Positions 3,185 to 17,178 of a stretch of 24,466 bases of DNA are shown piece by piece. The stretch covers positions 1 through 24,466 of the IMG/VR virus record IMGVR_UViG_3300004369_000716; one strand, written 5' to 3'. Made by a program: the position numbers and the translations under genes. The notes under the pieces were generated by a model that was given only the letters and a program-made list of their open reading frames with translations, searched no databases and was not told where the DNA came from. The DNA is from a virus. Numbering within the stretch: the first letter of the stretch is position 1; every line of letters begins with the position of its first letter.

Positions 3185-3213
3185 TTGACAAAATCGCCAA
3201 AAACTCGTAAAAT
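3185..3213 (+). promoter_or_regulatory. Strong sigma70-type promoter (TTGACA-17-TAAAAT)
   Basis: A perfect TTGACA (3185-3190), a 17-base spacer and TAAAAT (3208-3213), one base from TATAAT. The ATG of the 48-residue basic protein is 30 bases from the start of the -10 box. The promoter sits just after the PAAR stop, within a late structural cluster where T4-type late boxes would be expected, so it may give early expression of the small gene or add transcription of the baseplate block. Confidence 0.8.
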
Positions 3214-3237: not shown

Positions 3238-3384
3238 ATGGCAAAAGCAAAAGGCGGTCTCGTAAAATCTGGTTACACCCCTGGAAAACCCAAACTGACC
3301 CGTCAAGGTCGTTCTCCTAACACCAAATATGCCGCTACTTCACGAAATAAGGCGAAAAAAGCGTACCGTGGACAAGGCAGATAA
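3238..3384 (+). CDS. 48-residue strongly basic protein, unknown function
   Basis: Starting at ATG 3238, the frame reads MAKAKGGLVKSGYTPGKPKL and continues to end KAYRGQGR. About a third of residues are Lys or Arg and none are acidic, and the sequence is rich in Gly, Pro, Ser and Thr. It has no hydrophobic core and is probably disordered until it binds something, most simply nucleic acid or an acidic protein surface such as the host polymerase or ribosome. The last is inference. It has its own near-consensus host-type promoter (3185-3213). No Shine-Dalgarno sequence stands at normal distance (GAAGG is about 17 bases upstream). The stop overlaps a late promoter box. Confidence 0.65.
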   Translation: MAKAKGGLVKSGYTPGKPKLTRQGRSPNTKYAATSRNKAKKAYRGQGR

Positions 3385-3387
3385 ATA
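3380..3387 (+). promoter_or_regulatory. T4-type late promoter box (GATAAATA)
   Basis: GATAAATA differs by one base from the T4 late consensus TATAAATA, which is read with phage sigma factor gp55. It overlaps the stop of the 48-residue gene and lies 66 bases before the ATG at 3446. The hairpin at 3404-3438 lies between box and gene. The same variant recurs at 3652. Confidence 0.6.
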
Positions 3388-3403
3388 ATTTTGGAGATAG
3401 CAA

Positions 3404-3445
3404 CCTCCCTAAAAGTTCTTTTTGGACTTTTTCGGAGGATTTTTT
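3404..3445 (+). promoter_or_regulatory. Hairpin hiding the ribosome binding site; terminator-like
   Basis: CCTCC (3404-3408) pairs with GGAGG (3434-3438), the Shine-Dalgarno sequence of the gene at 3446. Inside, AAAAGTTC (3411-3418) pairs with GGACTTTT (3424-3431) with one G-U pair around a five-T loop. The two stems are separated by a 2x2 mismatch, giving 13 pairs. ATTTTTT follows directly, as in an intrinsic terminator. The element could end transcription from upstream and, in reads that pass it, lower translation of the next gene. Confidence 0.6.
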
Positions 3446-3637
3446 ATGGCAAATTCGCCTGTAGATCTAGGAAACGAATTTATTGAGTCAGGTATGACAC
3501 TAATTACATCTCCCGCCAGCGACAAATACTTGGAAATGGCGAAAAAACAGAAAAATGACCCCCCAACTAATCGTTTATCACGTCCTTGCGGCGGAAAAGG
3601 CGGATTTGACGACTATGTTGAGCGTTGGCACGAGTGA
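3446..3637 (+). CDS. 63-residue protein, unknown function
   Basis: I take ATG 3446 as the start because GGAGG (3434-3438) precedes it by 7 bases; an upstream TTG at 3422 would put the Shine-Dalgarno sequence inside the gene. The protein has an acidic N-terminal part (PVDLGNEFIESG), a Lys-rich helix-like centre (YLEMAKKQKNDPP), and a C-terminus with one Cys and a Gly-rich turn (RPCGGKGGFDDY). It has no membrane segment. The family is unknown. It lies between the spike-tip and gp25 genes, under a late box and an unusual hairpin, so it is probably a late gene product, either a minor virion part or an assembly factor. Confidence 0.65.
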   Translation: MANSPVDLGNEFIESGMTLITSPASDKYLEMAKKQKNDPPTNRLSRPCGGKGGFDDYVERWHE

Positions 3638-3651
3638 CTTTCCGAAACCCT

Positions 3652-3659
3652 GATAAATA
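3652..3659 (+). promoter_or_regulatory. T4-type late promoter box (GATAAATA)
   Basis: GATAAATA lies 29 bases before the ATG of gp25 (3681), the normal distance for a late promoter, in the 43-base gap between genes. It probably drives the gp25-gp6-gp7 block. Confidence 0.7.
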
Positions 3660-3680: not shown

Positions 3681-4070
3681 ATGGCGATTATCTCGAAGTC
3701 CTTTAGGGACTTTAGCCTAACTTTTGAAAAAAATCCAGTAACCAACGATGTTTTGTCGCTTAAAAACGAAAAAGCGATCAAAGAATCGGTGAAAAATATC
3801 GTTAGGTACAATTTTTTCGAAAAGCCATTTTATCCACAGTTCGGTGGGAACATCATTGGACAACTTTTTGAGAATTATACTCCTGGTTTGGAAAATGAAC
3901 TTTCCGATAACATCGAAAGGTGCATTAACTTGTATGAACCAAGAGTCGCTTGCTATGAAGTCGTAGTTCGATTTGACGAAGACTCAAATGAACTTGGCGC
4001 ACAAGTCAGTTACATTATTCTTGGATTGCAACCCACTGTTGATTCTATCGATTTAGTATTTAAACCATAA
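3681..4070 (+). CDS. 25: Baseplate wedge subunit gp25
   Basis: A 129-residue protein close to the 132 residues of T4 gp25. The gp25/GPW family forms the inner core of the contractile baseplate wedge, binds the gp6 dimer with gp53, and starts sheath polymerisation because its fold matches the sheath handshake domain. Seen here: the N-terminal strand SFRDFSLTFEKNP, DVLSLKNEKAIKESVKNIV (24-41), the conserved region FYPQFGGNIIGQLFENY (50-66), a helix to 84, then YEPRVACYEVVVRFDED (85-101) and the closing beta strands. It follows a late box at 3652. Its TAA shares one base with the ATG of gp6. Order and family are typical of T4-like cyanophages. Confidence 0.92.
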   Translation: MAIISKSFRDFSLTFEKNPVTNDVLSLKNEKAIKESVKNIVRYNFFEKPFYPQFGGNIIGQLFENYTPGLENELSDNIERCINLYEPRVACYEVVVRFDEDSNELGAQVSYIILGLQPTVDSIDLVFKP

Positions 4071-5928: not shown

Positions 5929-8900
5929 ATGCCAACATCCTCCTGGAAAGTTAGTTCTTGGACTACACCTCCTACTCAGGTAACTGTACCACCAGTTCCC
6001 TCAGAGGTTAGTCCTGAGTCTAGATCGCAGATTTCAGATAGAGTCTTTTCTCAGTTTCCTTCCTTTGTCAGAGAGGATTACACGACTTTTGTCGATTTTA
6101 TAAAGGCATACTATAAATCTCAGGAATTAAAGGGCAATCCAATTGATATTGTCCAAAACTGGGATGAATACTACAATATCGATAGGTATGAGTCTCTGGT
6201 ACAAGAGACAACACTCATTTCTACACTTTCCGATACTTCGACTTCAGTTGATGTTACATCGACAACAGACTTTCCGAATGAAGGTCTGATTCAAATCGAT
6301 GATGAGATCATTTATTACAATGGTAAAAACTCTACATCATTTACTAACTGTGTAAGGGGATTTTCTGGAGTAAATGCAGTAGGAACTACTGCAGAATTTA
6401 ACTTCTCTCAAACTCAAGCCTCTTCTCATTCTACTGGAACTTCTGTTGTTAACCTCAACAATATTTTTCCACTCTATATCTTAGAAAAGTTTAAAGAGCA
6501 ATATCTTTCGACATTCCCTAAAGACTTTTACGAGTCAGTAAACCAGAATGTTGTTGTAAAGAGAATTAAGGACTTTTATTCCGCAAAAGGAACAACTAGG
6601 TCCTTCCAGTTCATTATGAGATCGATCTTTGGAGTAGAATCCGAAGTCAAATATCCAAGAGATCGTATTTTCAAACCATCTGACGCATTTTACGTTTCTA
6701 GAGAAGTTATCAGAGCACAAAAACTCTCTGGTAACCCAATGGAGCTTGTTGGAGAAGTTCTTTTCCAAGAAAATGACCCAACTGACCCAAATGTCAACTC
6801 TGCTAGAATTTATGTAAAGAGTGTTGTTGAAATCTACACAGAAGAAGGAATTATCTACGAAATTGACGTAGATACCAATAATTCTGATGGTACATTTGTT
6901 ACTCCATACAAAACAGTCTTGGCATATGGAGTTGGTGGCGATGTTGTTAACGATACCATTATTACGGTCGATTCTACGGTCGGTTGGCCAGAGTTAAATG
7001 GTAGAATTAGAATTGAAGATGAAATTATTAATTACCAGGAGAAAACCCTAACTCAATTCTTAGGATGTACAAGGGGAAGAGACAATACCACACCTACAGA
7101 GCATATTGCTGGTCAACCAGTAATTTCTGCGTTTAAAGTATATGGTTATTCTAACGTAGATGGATCTGAGATCACACTTTCTCTGTTTGGTGGAACTAGA
7201 GGAATTATTCTGAACAGTGGCGGTAAATACTACTTACCAAATAGTAAAATCACAACTCCAATCTCTCCAGGATTCGATAGTATCGATTCTGTCTGGGATA
7301 CCTTTGTATACAACGTAAGAAGAGCATTTAGGGGAACTTCTATTGCACTTTCTACTCCAAATGCAAATGGGAGTGTAACTGCTACGATTACAACTATCGA
7401 AGATCATGGATTAATCCGTGATGACGTTGTAGAAATTTTAAATTGTCCAGAAGACATCTACAATTCTAGTTTTACCGTAGATGGTATCGGATCTAAAAAA
7501 ACATTCAACATTACTATACCCTCAACTCCTCAACAGGGTGTAAATGTTGACTTTATCTGCACAAGAGAATTTTCTTTTGGTAAGAGTGATTATTCTAGCA
7601 TTAGATCTGGAATTGAGTCATATACCACTGATATTCAAAATACCTATAGAAGTGATGATAATATCATCGTTGCTTCCTCTGGTATCCCTAGTTATAAAAT
7701 TGGACCTTTTGGGGCAGAAGATATTCTTCCTGGAAATCAGAGATATCTAAAAAGAATTCCAAGAAATCCACAAACTAAGAGTACGAAGCAAGAAACTCCA
7801 GTTGGGCAAATTGGTATTGGTGTAAATGGAGTTCCATTTTTCTCATACAAAGGGGAAGAAGTCAAGAGATATGGTGGTGTCAGCGCGATTGAGCAAATTA
7901 CTGGTGGTGATGGATATGACATCACAAATCCACCTTTGGTTGAGTTTGAACCTGATTATGAATTAGATACCACATACCTCAGTGGAACTAGAGTTAAGTG
8001 GAATGGAAACCGCTATGTTGCTCTTGACACTGGATTAACATCTCCAGATGTATATCCCACCCATACCAGTGGTATTGTTACCTTAGGTCAAGTTCGTTGG
8101 CAGTATGAGGGAACTCCTGCTGAGGCTCTGGTTGCTATCAGTGGTAGAGTTATTAGTATCAACGTTACTAATGGTGGATCTGGATATACATCAGAACCTA
8201 TTATTGGTATTATTGGTGGTGGTGTTAATCCAACTGAAGCTGCCTCTGCAACCTGCAATATCACTAATGGAGTAGTTACCAACATTACAGTAACTTCATC
8301 TGGATCTGGGTATACTTCGATTCCTACAATTTCCATCACTGGTGGAGGTGGAAGTGGAGCAACTGGACAGGCAATTGTTAGAGGTCCAATCGAAGAGATT
8401 CATGTTACTAATGCAGGAACCAAGTATGATGTTCCACCAAACGTTAGATTGATTTCTGGTAACGGTGCTGTTGCTTATCCTTCTATTCTGAATGGGAAAA
8501 TTGAAAGTATCATCGTTACCTTTGGTGGCGAAAGATATTTTGGTCCACCCGACGTTGTTATTGTCGGTGATGGCGTTGGTGCAACTGCATTTGCCAATGT
8601 AGACAATAGTACCAATACAGTAACCAATATTGTAGTTACAAATAAAGGTATTGGTTATAGTGCAGGTAAGACTGAGATATTCATTGTTTATCCTGGAGAA
8701 GGGGCACAGTTCCAAACAAAACTCACAGAACTCACTTACAACGAAGCTGCAAGTAAGAGTGAATTGGGAATCGCTGCTAATGTTGCATACACTCCTAGAA
8801 AAGTTTTTGATTATGCTAACGGTGCGTCTTTCCAAGGGACAAACTATCTGATTTATGGTGGGGAGTATGGGCACATGTACAACCCCAAAGCACTTCGATT

Positions 8901-11900
8901 TATCCTCGAAGATAATATCAGTGACAGTTTCTCCGAATTGAATCCAACAAAACACTCACCTATTATTGGGTGGGCTTATGATGGACATCCAATTTACGGT
9001 CCTTATGGATATAAGGATTCCGAAAACAAAAATCCATTTAACGAATATAAACTTCTTTCATGTAGTTATAGAAAGAAATCGGGAAGAATTAGTCTTCTTG
9101 ATGGTTTGACAGATCCTCTTGGAACTTATATTGAAGATTTTGAGTATGTTGAAGGTCTTGGTGATCTTGATGAATATAATGGTAGATTCTGTGTTACTCC
9201 AGAGTTTCCAAATGGAACATATGCATACTTCTGTTCTATTGACGGTGTTACAGGAAAACCAAAGTTCCCATACTTCGTCGGACCAGAGTTCTACAGTCAG
9301 GCGAATGAAGTAAACTGGAATGGAAACGGTCTACAGAAGAATTTTACTGAAGATGCTATCCGTTACAAGGGACCATTCGTCAACGTTGATAATTTAACCG
9401 TCAAGAGAAAGCAACTTAAAGATATTGAGTTCTTCTATCTTGCATTGGAAGATACTACGACCATTATTACATTGGAAACTGGAGAATTTGTCCAGTTGGA
9501 TGAAGATGGTATTGGTTATTTTGCATACTTCCCACTAATCAAAGGAAGTCAAGCAGATTCTCTCTTTGTATCTTCTACTAATAAGTATTCCTCAAATGGA
9601 ATTGATCAATACCTAATTGAAGGTGGTGGTGTTGGGTATAAGGTAAATGATAGATTAACCTTTGATGAGACTGGAACTGAGGGTTCTGGTCTGAGTGGGG
9701 TTATTTCTGGAGTTACTGGAGTTCCAGTTAGTTCTATTGCTTACACAGTAGACGAAGATGACGTTTCGACAGTAACCATAACAACTACAGAAAATCATTA
9801 TGTAAAGCAAGATGATCTAATAACCGTTACTGTTAATAATAACTTATCGCAGAAAGAAATTGCTGTTCAAGTACACAATAGCAAATACTATTTCAAATAC
9901 TTCGATTTGCAAAGTGCCAAATTGATGCAGGAGTGGACCACTGCCACTTCTTATAGTCAAGGAGATTTGGTCTATAATGGAATTTATGTTTATAGGGCAA
10001 AAGCAGCAGGAACCTCTGGTGCAACTTCGCCAACTCATATTAGTGGTACTGTAATTGATGGTATTGGCGGCGTTGAGTGGGAATACCAAAGAATTAGAAC
10101 CGATGGCAATCTCTACCAGGACGGATGGGCATCCATTACTGGTGGTTCAAATTATCTGAATGGAACTTACACAGACGTTCCATTAACTACTAATGGTAAT
10201 GGAGTTGGCGGTAAAGCAACTATCGTTGTTTCTGGTGGATCTGTTTCTTCTGTTACGATCACTAATCCAGGGTACGGTTATGTTATCGGTGATACTATCT
10301 CTGCATTGAATCTTAACCTGGGTAACAATTTAACTCCTAGTGCTGGATCTGGTTTTACAATAACCCTCACTGAAGTAGAAACTGAAGTTGTCTTTAGGTC
10401 CAACTCGGCACACTACTTAAGTGTTGGAGATACCGTAAGAATTTCTGGTATCAATCCATCTGATTATGATAAAACTGATTACTCTGTCGTTAGAGTTGAC
10501 TCAAATAGACGCTTTGTATGTAAGAGAAACTTTGCTTCTGTTGGAACTGCTATTGTCACAAATGCAGAAGTATATGTAGAGGAAGCAAAGTATCAGTTTA
10601 TCAACGGTCACAGATATAAGTTTGATGTAACTGATGCCACTCATGATGGCAAGAGGTTGTCATTTACAAAGGATCAGAACAATACTGATATTTTCAGCTA
10701 TAAGAATATCTTTGAAGTTGAGAATGATATTATTACTGGAGAGCAAAACACAATTACAATTGATATTGAAGATCTCTCTAGTATCTTCTATTATTTTGAC
10801 ATTAATGGATCCATTTCTGGATCGTTCTTTACTATTATCAACGATCCTGTAAAAGGAACTAATACCGTAACGTCTACAACATCCACCACAATTTCGTATC
10901 AAGTAAATCTCGAACCTGAGTCTGGATACAATACTGGAAACGGTGTAAGTTATGTAACCAACTCCATCTATGCTAAAGGTGGTATTGGTCAAATTAGTAT
11001 TGGTGACCCTGGAAGAAACTACTCCTCTATTCCATCTCTTTCTGGAACTACGAGAGCTGGATTTGGTGCAACAGCAACATGTACTATTGCTGGATCTCTC
11101 CTTTCTACCTCTATCTCTAATCGTGGATCTGGTTATAACGGAGCATCTTTGCCAACCGCAGTAGTCACGATGCCAGACTTCGTGGATCTTGAAGTCACAA
11201 ATCTCCTTGGAACTTTCTTCCCTGGTGAAATCGTAACATCAGAGCAAACTATTTCCAATCAGACTGCAAGAGGAAGAGTTATTTCTTGGAATCCAGATAC
11301 ATCTGTACTCAGACTTCAACCAATCCAAAACATCAAGGTTGGTGCGGCAAATAAAGGGTATATCATGTTTACTTCTGGAAATGCATTCACTAATAAGGTA
11401 TATTCCTCAGACTCTCAGTGTTCTATCTCTAGCGTAAGTGGGACTCAAGCTACCGTTGCTGCTGTTGTCCCAGTGGCAGGTCCAAATGCAGGAAGTCTTG
11501 AAAGTTTGACGATTACTGGCATTGGATCTAACTATAGAGAAGCTCCAACTGTTATCTTGGACGATCCTTACTATGGATCCGTTAGTGAAGTTTCTATTAC
11601 AAGTCAAAATACATCGGCAAACTTTAGTGCTGGAACCTACACGGGAGTAACTCAAAAAGGGGTTGCTCCAACTGGAGGAACTGATGTAGAGTTCACAGTA
11701 ATTATTGACGCAGTAACGTTCGATGTAATTTCAGTAACAGTTACCAATGGTGGTGGAACCTATGCTTTAGGTGATGTTATTACTATATCTGGTGCTCAAA
11801 TCACTGGTGGTGCTGATGGTGCTGATGACTTTACTGTTACTGTAACCAAATTAAGTCATGCAAACCCAGCAATTATCGCAACAAAGATTACTGCTGCCAT

Positions 11901-14900
11901 TGATTCTGTAACAGTAACTAATGGTGGTTCTGGTTATCTATCATCTCCAGATGTTCTTGTCAGTGGTGGTAATGGTATCGATGCAATTTTGAATGCTGAG
12001 ATTACTAATGAGGGAGTATCAAGAATTACCATTGAGAATGGTGGAACTCAATTTGAGACTGCTCCAGTAATTAACATTTTACAATCAACTGGAATTGGTG
12101 CATCTATCCTCTTCAAGTCTTCCAATCTTGGCGAAATTGTTAAGATTGGCGGTGATAATATCACATACAACTACAGTCACGATAGAACACTCAAACCAGA
12201 ACTCAACACAACATATAATCTCCAACTGATCAGAACTCAGATTATCGATTACTTAGATGTAATTGATGGTGGGTATTCTTTTGTTGCTAAACCAAGAATT
12301 CTTCTTGAGGGTGGAAGTGGATCTGCATTTGTACTGAATCCAATCATCCAGAATGAGGTTATTCAAGAAGTTGAGGTAATTAATGCAGGTAAAGGATTCT
12401 TATCCGCACCCGTAGTAAAAGCACAACTCAGTCACTCTTTTGTTGCTCTACAGTCCAACAGCACTGTTAATTTCTCGTATGATGCAAAGATACCTACAGG
12501 CACTCAGGTAACCCTTAGAGAGGTGTATGGAACCCTCCCACAACCATTAGAGACTGGAATCGTTTACTATGCGATTGAGGATACTATTGCAAATGGACTG
12601 GCAAATAACCAGATCCGCCTTGCTACCAGCGAAGCAAATGCAATTGCAGGTACTTTCATCAATTTCACAACACCTCCAACCTTAGGAAACAACGGTCTCG
12701 CTACATTTGTTTTAGATACAACTGATTTGGGTGCAAACATTAATATCTACATGAAACCAGGAACGTTTGCGGTTGGTGAATTCATTTATCAAGGTGCTTC
12801 TGTAAGTTCCTTTACTGCAAAAGGTATCGTTAAGAACTGGGATGCAAAAGGTAGAGTTGTTAGTGTTGAGGCTCTTGAGGGAGAATTTAAGATTGGTGAA
12901 CCTGTATTTGGTGCAGAAACTTCGGCATTTGGTCAAATTCATGCATTTGACAGAGCGGATGCAGTATTCGAAGTATCTCCTATTAGTATTTCTGGAAATA
13001 AGTGGGAGAAAACAACTGGATTCCTCGATCTTAATGAGCAAAGACTATATGATAGTGATAGATTCCAAGAATTCTCATATGAAATTGCCTCTTCAATCAA
13101 TATTAATGATTGGAGAAGCCCAGTTAAGTTTGCTGCTCACCCTGCAGGATTTAAAGTATTTGGATCTCAAATTGTTGAGACCTCGGTATTCAAATCCTTC
13201 AGACCTATGCCAACTAGAGATTATGTAACATCTGATCTCTATAATTGGTGGGTTCCTGGTATTCCACCATCTAGCCTACAATCGATCAATGGCATAACCC
13301 TCTTTACACCAAAACCATCTGCAGAAAATACTGGAAAGCTTTCCAGAATTGATAATTTTGCTCTTGGTAAACCAGACTATACTGCTTCTGTACCAACTGA
13401 GGTTTTGATATTTGGTAGACAACTTCTCGACATTCAGAGGATTCTTACTTGTATTGTATACAAAACTGACTCTTTGAATACCAGATCGATTTCCTTTGAT
13501 GGAAGTTCTGCTTCTGTTGTTGATGTAAACAACAATCAGATTACACTCACTAATCATGGATTAGTTGCAGATCAAAGAATCGTATATAATGCTGGTGGAG
13601 ATAGATTCTTAGATGCTAGAGATCTTATCGCAGTAAACATTGACTTCATCACCGAAGAAGTTATCGGTTATTTGGAAGCGAATTATCCAGCATTGACAGA
13701 TGGATCCAAACCAGATTACGACAGATCTATTTGTGCAAGAGATACTAGATTAGTTCTTGCTGCTTGGGCAAATGATTTAAGATATGGTGGAAACTCTTTC
13801 ACCGTAGCAGCTGCCGAGTCTTATGTTGGCGAAACTGTACTGGTTGGTGACAGATATGGTGATGCTAGAGAACTTCTCAGAGCAAATAAAGAGTTCATCG
13901 CTGAAGAAGCAGTTGGTAGAATGCTGGCAGATCCAATTGTAGGTATTTCTGCAGGATTCCCAGGTGTTCCAGGTGGAGACCAAAATTGTATTGATGATAT
14001 CATTGATATTGTTGAAGTTGTTGCTTACAACGTTGCGTATGGCGGTAACAGTGAAGTATATGATGCAGCAAATCTTTATGTAACTGGTGCTCACGTATCT
14101 GGTGAAGAAAGTCAGACAACAAAGGCGTTCGAAATTGCTCTTGAACTCTGTGAAGATGTAATTCAAAATTATCCCATCACTGCACAATACACTCAAAGAA
14201 CCCAGTATATTGATAATAGCATCTCAACAGATCCAATCGGATTTGTTGCCGATAGAAATGGCGATGCCTACGATTTACTCCAAGCAAATAAAACTTTCAT
14301 CGCTAACGAAGCAGTAGAGCAATACTTAATTGCAAATCCTTCGTTTACAATCCCAACAGGTAATCAAAATTGTATTGACGATGTTGTTGATGTTGTCGAT
14401 GCAGTTTCTAAGAATGTTGGATATGGCGGAAACGATCATACCTATGATGCTGCTTCTTACTACGTAGGAACTTCCCACGTTGATGGTGAAGAAGCAGAGA
14501 CGATTGCAATCATGAATCTCGCAAGAGACATGGCACAAAAGGCAATCAACAATGAAACTATTACTGTTCAGGGATCTCATGGATTAACTCAAACCTTCGA
14601 CAATACAATTACGATTGATGTCGGCGGTTGTGCAGCAATTAAATCAACTATCTCCACTTTGTTTAGCATTGTAACCACTGCTGTTAATACCGACAGCATG
14701 GCACATGCAACTAGAACTGGTGGCGGTGGTTACATTAATTCCTGTCAGAATGTTGTTTCTTCGATGACAACACTCTTCAATATCCTGATTCAAGCAGTAG
14801 GAACTACTGGAGCGCCTGGAGATTTAACTGGAATCACTAGAACTACTCCAGCAAACGCAATCTTGCATGTTGGTGGCGAAGAAGAAGAGACTATTGCTGC

Positions 14901-17178
14901 ATATACTAGAGCAAGAGATCTTGCAATTTTGGCAATCAATAACAATCTTCCTGTTGGTCAATTCACAACCAGAAAACCAGTTAAGGATCTTTCGATTACT
15001 TATGATGCTGGTGGATGTGCAAACGTAGTTTCTGCAATTACCACACTTGCACAGATCATTACTGAGGCAATCGATAATCCAGGATCCTTACCAGACAAAG
15101 ACTTTGGATTCTATCCAAATGTTAGAACTGGAGATCCAATTGGAGGATTGGTCAGTGGAAATGCTTACTATGTTAATTACATTGATGCTGACACTATTGG
15201 TCTTTTAGATGCTCCAAGTGGAAGTTCTGTACCTCTTACTTCAGTTGGTACTGGACCAGCACACCAAATTAATATTTCTGTAGATGGAATCAACACGAAC
15301 TATAAAATTAGAACTAATGAAGTTGATCTCTCTACCCATATTGGTAAGACTGCACAAAAGAGTCAGTTCCTAGTTTCCATTAATGGAATTATTCAAAATC
15401 CCGCAGGATTTACTTTTACCAACGACATCCTCACCTTCTCAGAAGCACCATTGGAAAATTCTGAAGTAGTGGTTATGTATTTTGATAGAAAGACGTATTC
15501 TAACGACTTTGTTCTTGATACGTTTGGAGATGGCATCAAAGACTTCAATACTACAGATGGTCTGATTGCTGGTGCTGGATATACGGATGGAGTTTACAAT
15601 GCAGAACCTCTTATCAATAAGAGAGGAAGTGGAACTGGAGCAACTGCAAATATTTCTGTTGTCGGTGGCGAAGTTGTATCTGTCAGCATTGTAGATGGTG
15701 GAAGTGGATACACCAATAACGATATTGTTACTGCGACTCTTGCTGGATCTCCAACTCAGGAATTCCAAGTAGAAGTTAATGATGTTACCTTCGATGGTGT
15801 TGAGACAGTATTCACCGCTCAAGTTAGTGGATCTAACTATACTTTACCTGCAAGTGACAACTTCTTACTGTTCCTCAACAGCACTCTTCAGGTCAAGGGA
15901 AGTAATGAGTCCTACAACTACACTGGAAGCACTATTACCTTCAATGAAGCTCCACTTGGAAACATGGACTTCTATTGCTTCTACTTTGGTAAATTAAATC
16001 TTTTGGATGACATTTCTCCTTTCTGTGATAGTTTTTCCAAGACCTTTATCATCAAAGAAAATGCTTCCCCATTCTCTATTGAATCTGACGATCCATCTGT
16101 AGATGCATCTGGTAACCTTGTTATCTTCATCAATGGAGTATACCAAGAACCTGGAATTTCCTATACTCTCAATGGATCACAGTTAGAGTTTTCTGAAGCG
16201 CCAAGAGCAGGATCGAACGTTGTACTGTATGCTTATCTTGGATCTGATGATGACGTGTTAATTGAAAATACCTTCAACTCTTTAGATCCAGGTGATATTG
16301 TTGAAATTCAGAGTGAAGGGGACGATAGACTTCTTGCTAGCGTCAGCAGTTCGAATACCATTGATACTTACGAGTATGTTGGTTTGAGACCAAGAGTCGC
16401 GGAATTTAGTTCTGTTATCTTGAATGGTGAGGTAGTTTCTGTAACTATCGTTGATCCTGGAAGCAACTATGAAGTTTCACCGATCCTCGTCTTCACTGGC
16501 GGTGGCGGACAAGGAGCATTTGCAGAAACGGTTATTGATAGAAATACTGGATCTGTCATTGATGTAATTAATCTGAAACCAGGAAGAAACTACACAAGTC
16601 CTCCTATAGTAAATCCAACTCACCCAGTCTCCATCGAAAGAGCACAAAGAAATAGAATTATTTCTAACAGCAATGCTCTCGGCAATACATATCTGTCCGC
16701 ATCTATTACTGCCACAGATACTACTATTACTGCAGAGAACGTTTTCTGGAATTCCAGCGAAAGAATTGGATTCCCAGATGACGGTGAGATTTTGATCAAG
16801 GTATTTAATGGAACTGCATGGACAACTGAAAGAGTACAATATGGTTCTAGAGATACTTCGGCAAACACATTTACCGTTGCATCTAACGGTAGAGGATATA
16901 GAAATACTGGACCTTCTCTTGGAGTTGGATTGGAAAACGTAATTGTATCTGGAACTTATGTTTCTTCTGGTACAGCATGTACAGTAACCACCTCTGGCGA
17001 TCACAATCTCGTTACTGGAATGACAATTTATCTGAAACACACTAGTGGAGATGGATTTGATGGAGAATATTCCGTCACTGTCACATCACCCAATACCTTC
17101 GTGGTAACATACCCATTTGCAAGAAACGCAACGGGTAGTGTTTCTCTCCTCCCAGAGATCCGTCTAAGTTCCTTATAA
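5929..17178 (+). CDS. Giant gp7-position baseplate wedge and fibre-like mosaic protein
   Basis: A single uninterrupted frame of 3749 residues between gp6 and gp8, the gp7 position; T4 gp7 has about 1030. The N-terminus (about 30-75, FPSFVREDYTTFVDFIKAYY) is the cyanophage baseplate type. Visible modules: two 'FP..G.I.I.DE.I.Y' segments (about 110-148, 348-385); GxGY beta repeats (about 730-900 and many later); two W/Y modules (about 676-728, 1335-1390); a YHYH-type domain (about 965-1120, with WAYDGHPIYGPYG); 'HGL' modules; alpha-helical repeats (about 2562-3050); and three fibre-type 'NG..Q' modules (about 3147-3440). The core probably links wedge parts and the rest reaches outward to fibres or cell surface. 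The gp7 role comes from order, not sequence identity. There is no clear Shine-Dalgarno sequence and the spacing from gp6 is 8 bases. Confidence 0.85.
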   Translation: MPTSSWKVSSWTTPPTQVTVPPVPSEVSPESRSQISDRVFSQFPSFVREDYTTFVDFIKAYYKSQELKGNPIDIVQNWDEYYNIDRYESLVQETTLISTLSDTSTSVDVTSTTDFPNEGLIQIDDEIIYYNGKNSTSFTNCVRGFSGVNAVGTTAEFNFSQTQASSHSTGTSVVNLNNIFPLYILEKFKEQYLSTFPKDFYESVNQNVVVKRIKDFYSAKGTTRSFQFIMRSIFGVESEVKYPRDRIFKPSDAFYVSREVIRAQKLSGNPMELVGEVLFQENDPTDPNVNSARIYVKSVVEIYTEEGIIYEIDVDTNNSDGTFVTPYKTVLAYGVGGDVVNDTIITVDSTVGWPELNGRIRIEDEIINYQEKTLTQFLGCTRGRDNTTPTEHIAGQPVISAFKVYGYSNVDGSEITLSLFGGTRGIILNSGGKYYLPNSKITTPISPGFDSIDSVWDTFVYNVRRAFRGTSIALSTPNANGSVTATITTIEDHGLIRDDVVEILNCPEDIYNSSFTVDGIGSKKTFNITIPSTPQQGVNVDFICTREFSFGKSDYSSIRSGIESYTTDIQNTYRSDDNIIVASSGIPSYKIGPFGAEDILPGNQRYLKRIPRNPQTKSTKQETPVGQIGIGVNGVPFFSYKGEEVKRYGGVSAIEQITGGDGYDITNPPLVEFEPDYELDTTYLSGTRVKWNGNRYVALDTGLTSPDVYPTHTSGIVTLGQVRWQYEGTPAEALVAISGRVISINVTNGGSGYTSEPIIGIIGGGVNPTEAASATCNITNGVVTNITVTSSGSGYTSIPTISITGGGGSGATGQAIVRGPIEEIHVTNAGTKYDVPPNVRLISGNGAVAYPSILNGKIESIIVTFGGERYFGPPDVVIVGDGVGATAFANVDNSTNTVTNIVVTNKGIGYSAGKTEIFIVYPGEGAQFQTKLTELTYNEAASKSELGIAANVAYTPRKVFDYANGASFQGTNYLIYGGEYGHMYNPKALRFILEDNISDSFSELNPTKHSPIIGWAYDGHPIYGPYGYKDSENKNPFNEYKLLSCSYRKKSGRISLLDGLTDPLGTYIEDFEYVEGLGDLDEYNGRFCVTPEFPNGTYAYFCSIDGVTGKPKFPYFVGPEFYSQANEVNWNGNGLQKNFTEDAIRYKGPFVNVDNLTVKRKQLKDIEFFYLALEDTTTIITLETGEFVQLDEDGIGYFAYFPLIKGSQADSLFVSSTNKYSSNGIDQYLIEGGGVGYKVNDRLTFDETGTEGSGLSGVISGVTGVPVSSIAYTVDEDDVSTVTITTTENHYVKQDDLITVTVNNNLSQKEIAVQVHNSKYYFKYFDLQSAKLMQEWTTATSYSQGDLVYNGIYVYRAKAAGTSGATSPTHISGTVIDGIGGVEWEYQRIRTDGNLYQDGWASITGGSNYLNGTYTDVPLTTNGNGVGGKATIVVSGGSVSSVTITNPGYGYVIGDTISALNLNLGNNLTPSAGSGFTITLTEVETEVVFRSNSAHYLSVGDTVRISGINPSDYDKTDYSVVRVDSNRRFVCKRNFASVGTAIVTNAEVYVEEAKYQFINGHRYKFDVTDATHDGKRLSFTKDQNNTDIFSYKNIFEVENDIITGEQNTITIDIEDLSSIFYYFDINGSISGSFFTIINDPVKGTNTVTSTTSTTISYQVNLEPESGYNTGNGVSYVTNSIYAKGGIGQISIGDPGRNYSSIPSLSGTTRAGFGATATCTIAGSLLSTSISNRGSGYNGASLPTAVVTMPDFVDLEVTNLLGTFFPGEIVTSEQTISNQTARGRVISWNPDTSVLRLQPIQNIKVGAANKGYIMFTSGNAFTNKVYSSDSQCSISSVSGTQATVAAVVPVAGPNAGSLESLTITGIGSNYREAPTVILDDPYYGSVSEVSITSQNTSANFSAGTYTGVTQKGVAPTGGTDVEFTVIIDAVTFDVISVTVTNGGGTYALGDVITISGAQITGGADGADDFTVTVTKLSHANPAIIATKITAAIDSVTVTNGGSGYLSSPDVLVSGGNGIDAILNAEITNEGVSRITIENGGTQFETAPVINILQSTGIGASILFKSSNLGEIVKIGGDNITYNYSHDRTLKPELNTTYNLQLIRTQIIDYLDVIDGGYSFVAKPRILLEGGSGSAFVLNPIIQNEVIQEVEVINAGKGFLSAPVVKAQLSHSFVALQSNSTVNFSYDAKIPTGTQVTLREVYGTLPQPLETGIVYYAIEDTIANGLANNQIRLATSEANAIAGTFINFTTPPTLGNNGLATFVLDTTDLGANINIYMKPGTFAVGEFIYQGASVSSFTAKGIVKNWDAKGRVVSVEALEGEFKIGEPVFGAETSAFGQIHAFDRADAVFEVSPISISGNKWEKTTGFLDLNEQRLYDSDRFQEFSYEIASSININDWRSPVKFAAHPAGFKVFGSQIVETSVFKSFRPMPTRDYVTSDLYNWWVPGIPPSSLQSINGITLFTPKPSAENTGKLSRIDNFALGKPDYTASVPTEVLIFGRQLLDIQRILTCIVYKTDSLNTRSISFDGSSASVVDVNNNQITLTNHGLVADQRIVYNAGGDRFLDARDLIAVNIDFITEEVIGYLEANYPALTDGSKPDYDRSICARDTRLVLAAWANDLRYGGNSFTVAAAESYVGETVLVGDRYGDARELLRANKEFIAEEAVGRMLADPIVGISAGFPGVPGGDQNCIDDIIDIVEVVAYNVAYGGNSEVYDAANLYVTGAHVSGEESQTTKAFEIALELCEDVIQNYPITAQYTQRTQYIDNSISTDPIGFVADRNGDAYDLLQANKTFIANEAVEQYLIANPSFTIPTGNQNCIDDVVDVVDAVSKNVGYGGNDHTYDAASYYVGTSHVDGEEAETIAIMNLARDMAQKAINNETITVQGSHGLTQTFDNTITIDVGGCAAIKSTISTLFSIVTTAVNTDSMAHATRTGGGGYINSCQNVVSSMTTLFNILIQAVGTTGAPGDLTGITRTTPANAILHVGGEEEETIAAYTRARDLAILAINNNLPVGQFTTRKPVKDLSITYDAGGCANVVSAITTLAQIITEAIDNPGSLPDKDFGFYPNVRTGDPIGGLVSGNAYYVNYIDADTIGLLDAPSGSSVPLTSVGTGPAHQINISVDGINTNYKIRTNEVDLSTHIGKTAQKSQFLVSINGIIQNPAGFTFTNDILTFSEAPLENSEVVVMYFDRKTYSNDFVLDTFGDGIKDFNTTDGLIAGAGYTDGVYNAEPLINKRGSGTGATANISVVGGEVVSVSIVDGGSGYTNNDIVTATLAGSPTQEFQVEVNDVTFDGVETVFTAQVSGSNYTLPASDNFLLFLNSTLQVKGSNESYNYTGSTITFNEAPLGNMDFYCFYFGKLNLLDDISPFCDSFSKTFIIKENASPFSIESDDPSVDASGNLVIFINGVYQEPGISYTLNGSQLEFSEAPRAGSNVVLYAYLGSDDDVLIENTFNSLDPGDIVEIQSEGDDRLLASVSSSNTIDTYEYVGLRPRVAEFSSVILNGEVVSVTIVDPGSNYEVSPILVFTGGGGQGAFAETVIDRNTGSVIDVINLKPGRNYTSPPIVNPTHPVSIERAQRNRIISNSNALGNTYLSASITATDTTITAENVFWNSSERIGFPDDGEILIKVFNGTAWTTERVQYGSRDTSANTFTVASNGRGYRNTGPSLGVGLENVIVSGTYVSSGTACTVTTSGDHNLVTGMTIYLKHTSGDGFDGEYSVTVTSPNTFVVTYPFARNATGSVSLLPEIRLSSL
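7960..8118 (+). repeat. W/Y-rich module, copy 1 (in the giant protein)
   Basis: Residues about 678-730. The pattern is Y-x-x-G-x-x-V-K-W-N-G-x-x-Y-V-A, then PTHTSG, then VRWQYEG. This recalls small chitin-binding type 3 or CBM5/12-like modules found in phage fibres, which stack aromatic residues on polysaccharide. A second copy with the same order occurs at 9931-10098, about 660 residues later. The binding role is inference. Confidence 0.55.
8137..8690 (+). repeat. Run of GxGY beta repeats in the giant protein
   Basis: From residue about 737 to 920 a unit of roughly 40-60 residues repeats with the pattern 'I..I.VTNGGSGYTS.P.I.I.GGG..A.A'. Examples are TNGGSGYTSEP, SSGSGYTSIP, NAGTKYDVPP and FGGERYFGPP. 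Further scattered units occur around 10240, 11110, 11740, 11920, 12250, 15690 and 16450. Such repeats suit a beta-solenoid or a chain of small beta modules. Confidence 0.65.
8821..9288 (+). other. YHYH-type domain region within the giant protein
   Basis: Residues about 965-1120 contain the signature GWAYDGHPIYGPYG (1014-1027), then FEYVEG, a CVTPEFPNGTYAYFCSID segment (starting at Cys1088) and KFPYFVGPEFY. This matches my memory of the YHYH domain (PF14240), found in many cyanophage structural proteins. The function is not established; conserved His, Tyr and Cys residues are suited to metal or ligand binding. Confidence 0.7.
9931..10098 (+). repeat. W/Y-rich module, copy 2 (in the giant protein)
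   Basis: Residues about 1335-1390. EWTTATSYSQGDLVYNGIYV is followed by YRAKAAGTSGATSPTHISG and VEWEYQR. It has the same order of W, Y-x-x-G-x-x-V, PTHxSG and W-x-Y as copy 1 at 7960-8118. The Trp at the start (W1336) makes it closer to the classical binding module. Confidence 0.55.
13612..15081 (+). repeat. Alpha-helical repeat array in the giant protein
   Basis: Three related units begin at D2562, D2645 and D2779 with 'DA..LL.AN..FI.EEAV', then 'CI.DI.DIV.AVAYNV.YGG', then 'YDAA..YV......GEE..T'. Unit 1 is shorter (83 residues) than unit 2 (134). After unit 3 come four partial units of the type 'GGC..V.SAITTL..II..AI' (about 14617, 14734, 15004) and 'GGEEEETIAAYTRARDLAILAINN' (14866). This helical block stands out in a protein that is otherwise beta-rich. 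Confidence 0.8.
15367..16248 (+). repeat. Three fibre-type modules near the end of the giant protein
   Basis: The pattern 'F.VFINGV.Q.PG..YT..G..ITFSEAP..G..V.V.Y' appears at residues about 3147-3188, 3310-3355 and 3396-3440. Examples of its conserved end are LTFSEAPLEN, ITFNEAPLGN and LEFSEAPRAG. Modules of this kind are common in tail fibre proteins, where they form short beta-rich links. Confidence 0.65.

Follow-up and report, generated by a model that had tools for sequence, protein, structure and literature searches.

A candidate riboswitch-like pseudoknot leader before a small baseplate-adjoining gene of T4-like cyanophages

Known leader RNAs and the cyanophage locus

Small riboswitches of the preQ1-I and SAM-II type are H-type pseudoknots with an A-rich loop that use interchangeable platforms and compete with terminator hairpins or with hairpins hiding the Shine-Dalgarno (SD) sequence. 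In phage T4, a leader pseudoknot controls translation of gene 32 and serves autogenous repression; it is located 67 nt upstream, and from it gp32 binding nucleates across an unstructured ribosome-binding site (PMC3014915). In the T4 genes e, soc, 49 and I-TevI, a hairpin close to a late promoter hides the ribosome-binding site, an arrangement that in gene e separates early from late transcripts (PMC3014915). Known leader RNAs of cyanobacteria and T4-like cyanophages comprise glnA/Downstream-peptide, wcaG, manA and PhotoRC-II (PMC2864571, PMC9964418), some of which stand before short ORFs (PMC2864571). A T4 review of 2010 stated that no T4 riboswitch had been functionally characterised and that T4-related genomes might suggest candidates (PMC3014915).

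We analysed a viral DNA stretch of 24,466 nt, hereafter the window (positions 1 to 24,466 of IMG/VR record IMGVR_UViG_3300004369_000716). The window is part of a T4-like cyanophage with the baseplate genes gp25, gp6 and gp8 and a 3749-aa protein, and the Prochlorococcus phages P-HM2 and P-HM1 are its nearest records. All features described here lie on the plus strand. The leader under study separates a 48-aa gene (3238-3384; phrog_516, E 1e-19) from a 63-aa gene (3446-3637; phrog_1414), and neither PHROG has an assigned function. The baseplate wedge gene gp25 (3681-4070; PF04965/phrog_261) follows directly 3' of the 63-aa gene; it is the conserved downstream neighbour of the small gene, and this order is kept in most isolates examined. 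Searches of Pfam and of PDB sequences with the 63-aa protein returned no match. Elsewhere in the window, a 100-aa ORF with DUF7249 (63-365; PF23907) lies on DNA with 81.8% identity to a stretch of phages Sf-CH11 and Sf-CH1a, and a 72-aa ORF (757-975) belongs to a PHROG labelled toxin (phrog_18430, E 7e-12). A 153-aa ORF (1321-1782) matches the 4'-phosphopantetheinyl transferase superfamily (PF01648, E 2.7e-8), here in a cyanophage, and its PHROG has no assigned function. The 3749-aa ORF (5929-17178) occupies the gp7 position, and its similarly giant counterpart in P-HM2 is annotated gp7.

Positions 3393-3445 probably constitute a two-state cis-regulatory leader of the 63-aa gene, bistable in the manner of a riboswitch. 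The leader is like the preQ1-I and SAM-II type in its H-type pseudoknot of about 27 nt, its A-rich loop, its 5' position and its predicted competition with a hairpin. It differs in having no Rfam match and in being tied to one phage gene family. With gene 32 it shares the T4-type phage background and a leader pseudoknot; the cyanophage knot, however, shares strands with the SD-hiding hairpin and precedes a different gene. With e, soc, 49 and I-TevI it shares a hairpin that buries the ribosome-binding site close to a late promoter. Gene e has its late promoter within the 5' arm, and this arm is missing from the late mRNA, whereas the cyanophage late box lies upstream of both arms and the predicted late transcript keeps both of them together with the competing pseudoknot. 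Rfam 15 gave no match in the window at the gathering threshold. In a permissive search the best leader match had E 0.51 (mir-186, 16.6 bits against 70), the best among four isolate leaders had E 1.7, and the glnA/Downstream-peptide, wcaG, manA and PhotoRC-II models did not match the leader. The fluoride (crcB) riboswitch, with the pattern GGNG-AUGG-(4 nt)-CNCC-nUAAA, is similar to our element in stem 1, loop and linker and served as a lead only; crcB gave no match to the leader at E up to 5, and in the leader no further hairpin stands between stem 1 and the strand that closes the pseudoknot. We also rejected an abiF RNA (RF03085) or type III antitoxin-like pseudoknot, since the leader has no abiF match and precedes a different gene. 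An abiF RNA of 52 bits does occur in S-CREM1, in the tRNA cluster and thus elsewhere than the leader (S-CREM1 10531-10567, equivalent to L366 1032-1068), as already published (PMC9964418). The open-access literature yielded no description of such an element, an earlier account in subscription papers being possible, and a literature search with a 10-mer returned titles from unrelated fields only. By analogy, the leader would work like the small pseudoknot riboswitches and partly resembles the gene 32 and gene e leaders; we do not claim membership in any of these groups.

A conserved predicted pseudoknot in the leader

A preliminary description of this region had centred on a hairpin over the ribosome-binding site of the 63-aa gene. 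Comparison of related leaders indicates that an overlapping element at 3393-3419, absent from that description, is far more conserved than the hairpin. The element is composed of GGAG-AUAGCAAC-CUCC-CUAAAA-GUUCU and reads as an H-type pseudoknot; the family pattern at these positions is R-R-R-G-AUAGnAAC-C-Y-Y-Y-linker-AAAAGUUCU. In stem 1, GGAG (3393-3396) pairs with CUCC (3405-3408). The two strands enclose the conserved 8-nt loop AUAGCAAC (3397-3404), in which AAC is kept in 119/119 family matches although loop bases had been left free. This loop contains the 5' strand of stem 2 (A3399, G3400, A3402, A3403 and C3404, with C3401 bulged), which pairs with GUUCU (3415-3419). The core alignment places the A-rich connecting loop CUAAAA at 3409-3414.

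Stem 1 covaries strongly, and stem 2 is nearly invariant with weak covariation. Among 112 aligned cores, one stem 1 pair was intact in every case, with 42 double changes and four pair types (GC, AU, UA, CG). Another was intact in 98/112 with five pair types, and three stem 1 pairs in all showed double changes. Sliding the partner strand as a control lowered the proportion of paired cells from 91.8% to 26-59%. In stem 2 (AG(C)AAC/GUUCU), 98.9% of cells were paired. Six double changes fell at two of its five pairs, including the exchange of AG to GA with CU to UC in S-CRM01; we also counted 21 G-U wobbles at one pair and five G-C replacements of A-U. Since the other three pairs never vary and changes are few, support for stem 2 is thinner than for stem 1, and folding predicts its isolated duplex to be weak. 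Compensatory changes of the kind expected of an H-type pseudoknot are hence present in both stems, thinly in stem 2, and the sequence comparison supports stem 1 more firmly than stem 2. The 21 G-U pairs at a single stem 2 position and the sharing of strands with the SD pairing favour RNA, and a DNA-level inverted-repeat site is disfavoured. In a leader with GATAAAAACC (L559 / L556), both stem 2 and the leader's own SD hairpin (CUGUUU with AAUCAG) are broken, as if both halves had decayed together.

The element recurs in many related viruses. Homologous leaders of the 63-aa gene were collected by protein similarity alone, and 46 of 52 distinct ones carried it; five did not (L028, L030, L033, L042 and L068) and one was cut off. 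A pattern scan of viral contigs returned at least 120 stretches with the element, nearly all directly before the phrog_1414 small-protein family. A second scan with loop and tail bases free gave 119 matches with AAC and GUU, plus one chance match, and the bulged base varied among them (C 81, A 18, G 13, T 7). Because the pattern scans fixed part of the core, the apparent invariance is inflated in this larger set. Stem 1 was fully paired in 287/314 motif matches within the family versus 16/229 without the gene family downstream. One 200-kb contig (G004, the contig of L007; matches at 7097 and 111507; see also L569) has the element twice, together with the small gene. The copy at 7097 precedes a small gene copy and gp25, and the contig is possibly two phages joined in assembly.

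We then used a covariance model of the pseudoknot built from the 112 cores. It detected one copy each in ten isolate genomes (S-CREM1, S-SSM4, ACG-2014d, S-CAM3, S-CRM01, S-SRM01, S-WAM2, S-H38, Syn9 and S-RSM4), with scores of 40-48 bits in phages, 37 in S-RSM4 and 31 in S-CRM01. In Syn9 the leader region lies at 58,103-58,154. The model found no element in S-PM2, S-ShM2, Syn1, P-HM2, P-SSM2 and S-SSM7, and matches in P-SSM4 and S-SM1 as well as second matches in Syn9 and S-RSM4 were too weak to count. In 388 cyanobacterial genomes the best score was 27 bits, with no convincing copy at phage-like scores. Pattern matches in bacterial and archaeal genomes were many, as chance predicts for so loose a gapped pattern in 257 Gb. 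A scan for the variant GATGAnAACC returned S-CRM01 as the sole real case. Judged by these sequence surveys, the element is common to many viruses of marine and freshwater cyanobacteria and is apparently phage-only.

The near-invariant core suggests specific recognition. Gene specificity, with one copy per carrying isolate genome and always the same gene family downstream, favours a protein operator. The pseudoknot would then bind a host RNA-binding protein or a phage protein, either the one that the gene itself encodes or another, and feedback would arise as it does for T4 gene 32, whose leader pseudoknot mediates autogenous repression (PMC3014915). Yet the RNA core is almost invariant, whereas the 63-aa family protein diverges to below 40% identity with swapped C-terminal modules; its AlphaFold model has low confidence (pLDDT 62), and no RNA-binding fold is recognisable in it. 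We regard an operator of this kind as possible but rather unlikely. That the RNA hardly varies while the protein diverges speaks for an external effector, for instance a metabolite, an ion or a host factor.

Predicted pairings that compete for the ribosome-binding site

The alternative hairpin (3404-3438), which we propose as the off state, comprises 13 pairs arranged as 5 + 8 (3404-3408/3434-3438 and 3411-3418/3424-3431), with a 2x2 internal mismatch and a UUUUU loop. Every base of the SD sequence GGAGG of the 63-aa gene (3434-3438) is paired in it. An A and six U follow directly (3439-3445; terminator-like U6 tract at 3440-3445), and the AUG stands at 3446. The hairpin followed by AUUUUUU thus has the shape of an intrinsic terminator, and its coordinates and composition are as first described. 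The predicted energy is -17.0 kcal/mol (z = -2.1), a modest argument only, since 6/200 shuffles fold as well.

The hairpin and the pseudoknot are mutually exclusive because both use CUCC (3405-3408) and GUUC (3415-3418); CUCC pairs with the SD in the hairpin, and GUUC enters its upper arm. In folds of growing prefixes, stem 1 appeared as soon as it was made, and the hairpin took over once GGAGG was complete at 3438. Stem 1 alone is predicted at -4 to -5 kcal/mol versus -17 for the hairpin, so the window leader should be mostly off without an effector. The hairpin would be the off state of a larger structure with which it competes; what most relatives conserve is the other half of that structure, GGAGAUAGCAACCUCC...AAAAGUUCU. 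The preliminary reading of the hairpin is thus partly supported: it hides the SD, is terminator-shaped and recurs in relatives, with the compensatory changes whose absence was to count against it; it is not free-standing, however, and competes with the pseudoknot upstream. A plain intrinsic terminator or SD hairpin with no upstream sensor would account for the hairpin and the U-tract; we consider it highly improbable, given that the upstream pseudoknot is the conserved part and that the hairpin takes at least three different forms among relatives.

One of these forms is that of leaders in which the 3' strand of stem 1 pairs with the SD. Here three segments covary together, as in GGAG:CUCC:GGAG, AGAG:CUCU:AGAG and AGGG:CCCU:AGGG. 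A U-tract follows the hairpin in 15/30 of these leaders versus 1/213 of the others (Fisher p 8e-15), a near confinement that favours the combined terminator and SD-blocking reading for this subtype, whose isolates include S-CAM3, S-H38 and S-WAM2. Of 203 other leaders, 132 pair the SD with the GUUCU strand, versus 83 expected from shuffled linkers, the expectation being this high because GUUCU is partly complementary to any AGGA; the SD hairpins of these leaders also covary. When the pseudoknot was forced in silico, the SD opened by more than 0.3 in 117/203 leaders and closed by that much in none. For about 38 class B leaders, with CUGUUU/AAACAG beside the AUG, no shift in SD accessibility was predicted. 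Neither the window nor its relative L001, which is identical, appears in the leader listings for SD access and three-way covariation, most likely owing to a better-scoring upstream TTG start, and the window was folded separately. Two features of riboswitches are hence found, namely a conserved aptamer-like structure in a 5' leader and, computationally, an expression platform exclusive with it (shared strands, three-way covariation and SD opening). The alternative pairings and the 5'-leader position are supported by these comparisons.

Transcript origin and the proposed switch

Two promoters could feed the leader. The sigma-70-like (early) promoter at 3185-3213 (TTGACA-17-TAAAAT), noted earlier, matches 11/12 consensus positions; it is a consensus match only. 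It lies upstream of the 48-aa gene and could send read-through transcripts into the switch. A T4-type late promoter box GATAAATA (3380-3387) matches the consensus NATAAATA (PMC2984593). It stands 66 nt from the AUG of the 63-aa gene, compared with 29 nt for gp25 (box 3652-3659) and 27 nt for gp8. With 3 occurrences versus 5.4 expected, ATAAATA shows no enrichment in the window. TAAATA ends 4-7 nt upstream of stem 1 in 111/243 distinct homologous leaders, and 129/243 have no such box adjoining the element. On this sequence evidence, position rather than count appears to be the conserved property of the late box. Using T4 late-promoter geometry, we predict a late transcript start at about 3393, the first base of the pseudoknot. 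The preliminary description had taken the long spacing as leaving room for the hairpin; the spacing is correct, but the predicted start falls on the pseudoknot. The 48-aa gene ends with a stop codon at 3382-3384, 8 nt upstream of the element, and 58/99 scored late-promoter leaders have an upstream ORF that stops no more than 10 nt from stem 1; a ribosome upstream could thus also influence folding. In 13 leaders (L055, L065, L071, L080 and others) an intrinsic-terminator-like repeat with a T-tract lies shortly upstream of the element, and 11 of these have no TAAATA box.

This geometry would suit a temporal switch that needs no ligand and depends on where the transcript begins. On transcripts from the early promoter at 3185, ribosomes ending the 48-aa gene would cover GGAG, so that stem 1 does not form, the hairpin does and the gene is off. 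Late transcripts, beginning at about 3393, would have no ribosome upstream, so that stem 1 and the pseudoknot would form and the gene would be on. The late box spacing, the nearby stop codons and the SD-hiding structures of T4 e, soc, 49 and I-TevI (PMC3014915) point in this direction. The stop-to-stem distance is partly forced, however, because the late box itself contains TAA; more than half of the leaders lack an adjoining box, pure ribosome masking needs no near-invariant AUAGnAAC loop and GUUCU, and the late transcript would retain the complete hairpin, unlike that of gene e. We therefore think a purely temporal switch unlikely. Starts predicted at stem 1, which concern about half of the leaders, would also fit an mRNA stabiliser, a structured 5' end that shields the late transcript from ribonucleases without switching. 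Such a role leaves the strand sharing with SD hairpins, the three-way covariation and the U-tract association unexplained and would not need a near-invariant loop, and it seems very unlikely to us.

For the two-state leader that we prefer, we infer switching, termination, direction of control and effector from the sequences. In the on state, pairing of GGAG with CUCC and of AG(C)AAC with GUUCU would fold the start of the late transcript, or a stretch close to it, into a compact H-type pseudoknot and leave the SD free. In the off state, the CUCC and GUUC strands would pair downstream with GGAGG and GGAC and bury the SD, and in the U-tract subtype RNA polymerase would probably also be stopped. 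If an effector stabilised the pseudoknot, the gene would be switched on; candidates are a metabolite, an ion, a protein of the host or the phage, or ribosome traffic combined with co-transcriptional folding. Only tentatively do we suggest a more specific version, a riboswitch class that senses a metabolite or an ion and is confined to T4-like cyanophages, with one aptamer and at least three kinds of expression platform, which would time a small baseplate-adjoining gene by the state of the infected cell.

The leader is a concrete riboswitch candidate: it is compact, near-invariant and apparently phage-only, and it is present in cultured cyanophages including the laboratory phage Syn9, S-CREM1, S-SSM4 and S-RSM4. 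Should the proposed mechanism hold, the leader would offer a candidate aptamer whose effector can be sought directly, and a testable case of RNA-level control of a virion-region gene in abundant viruses of aquatic photosynthesisers.
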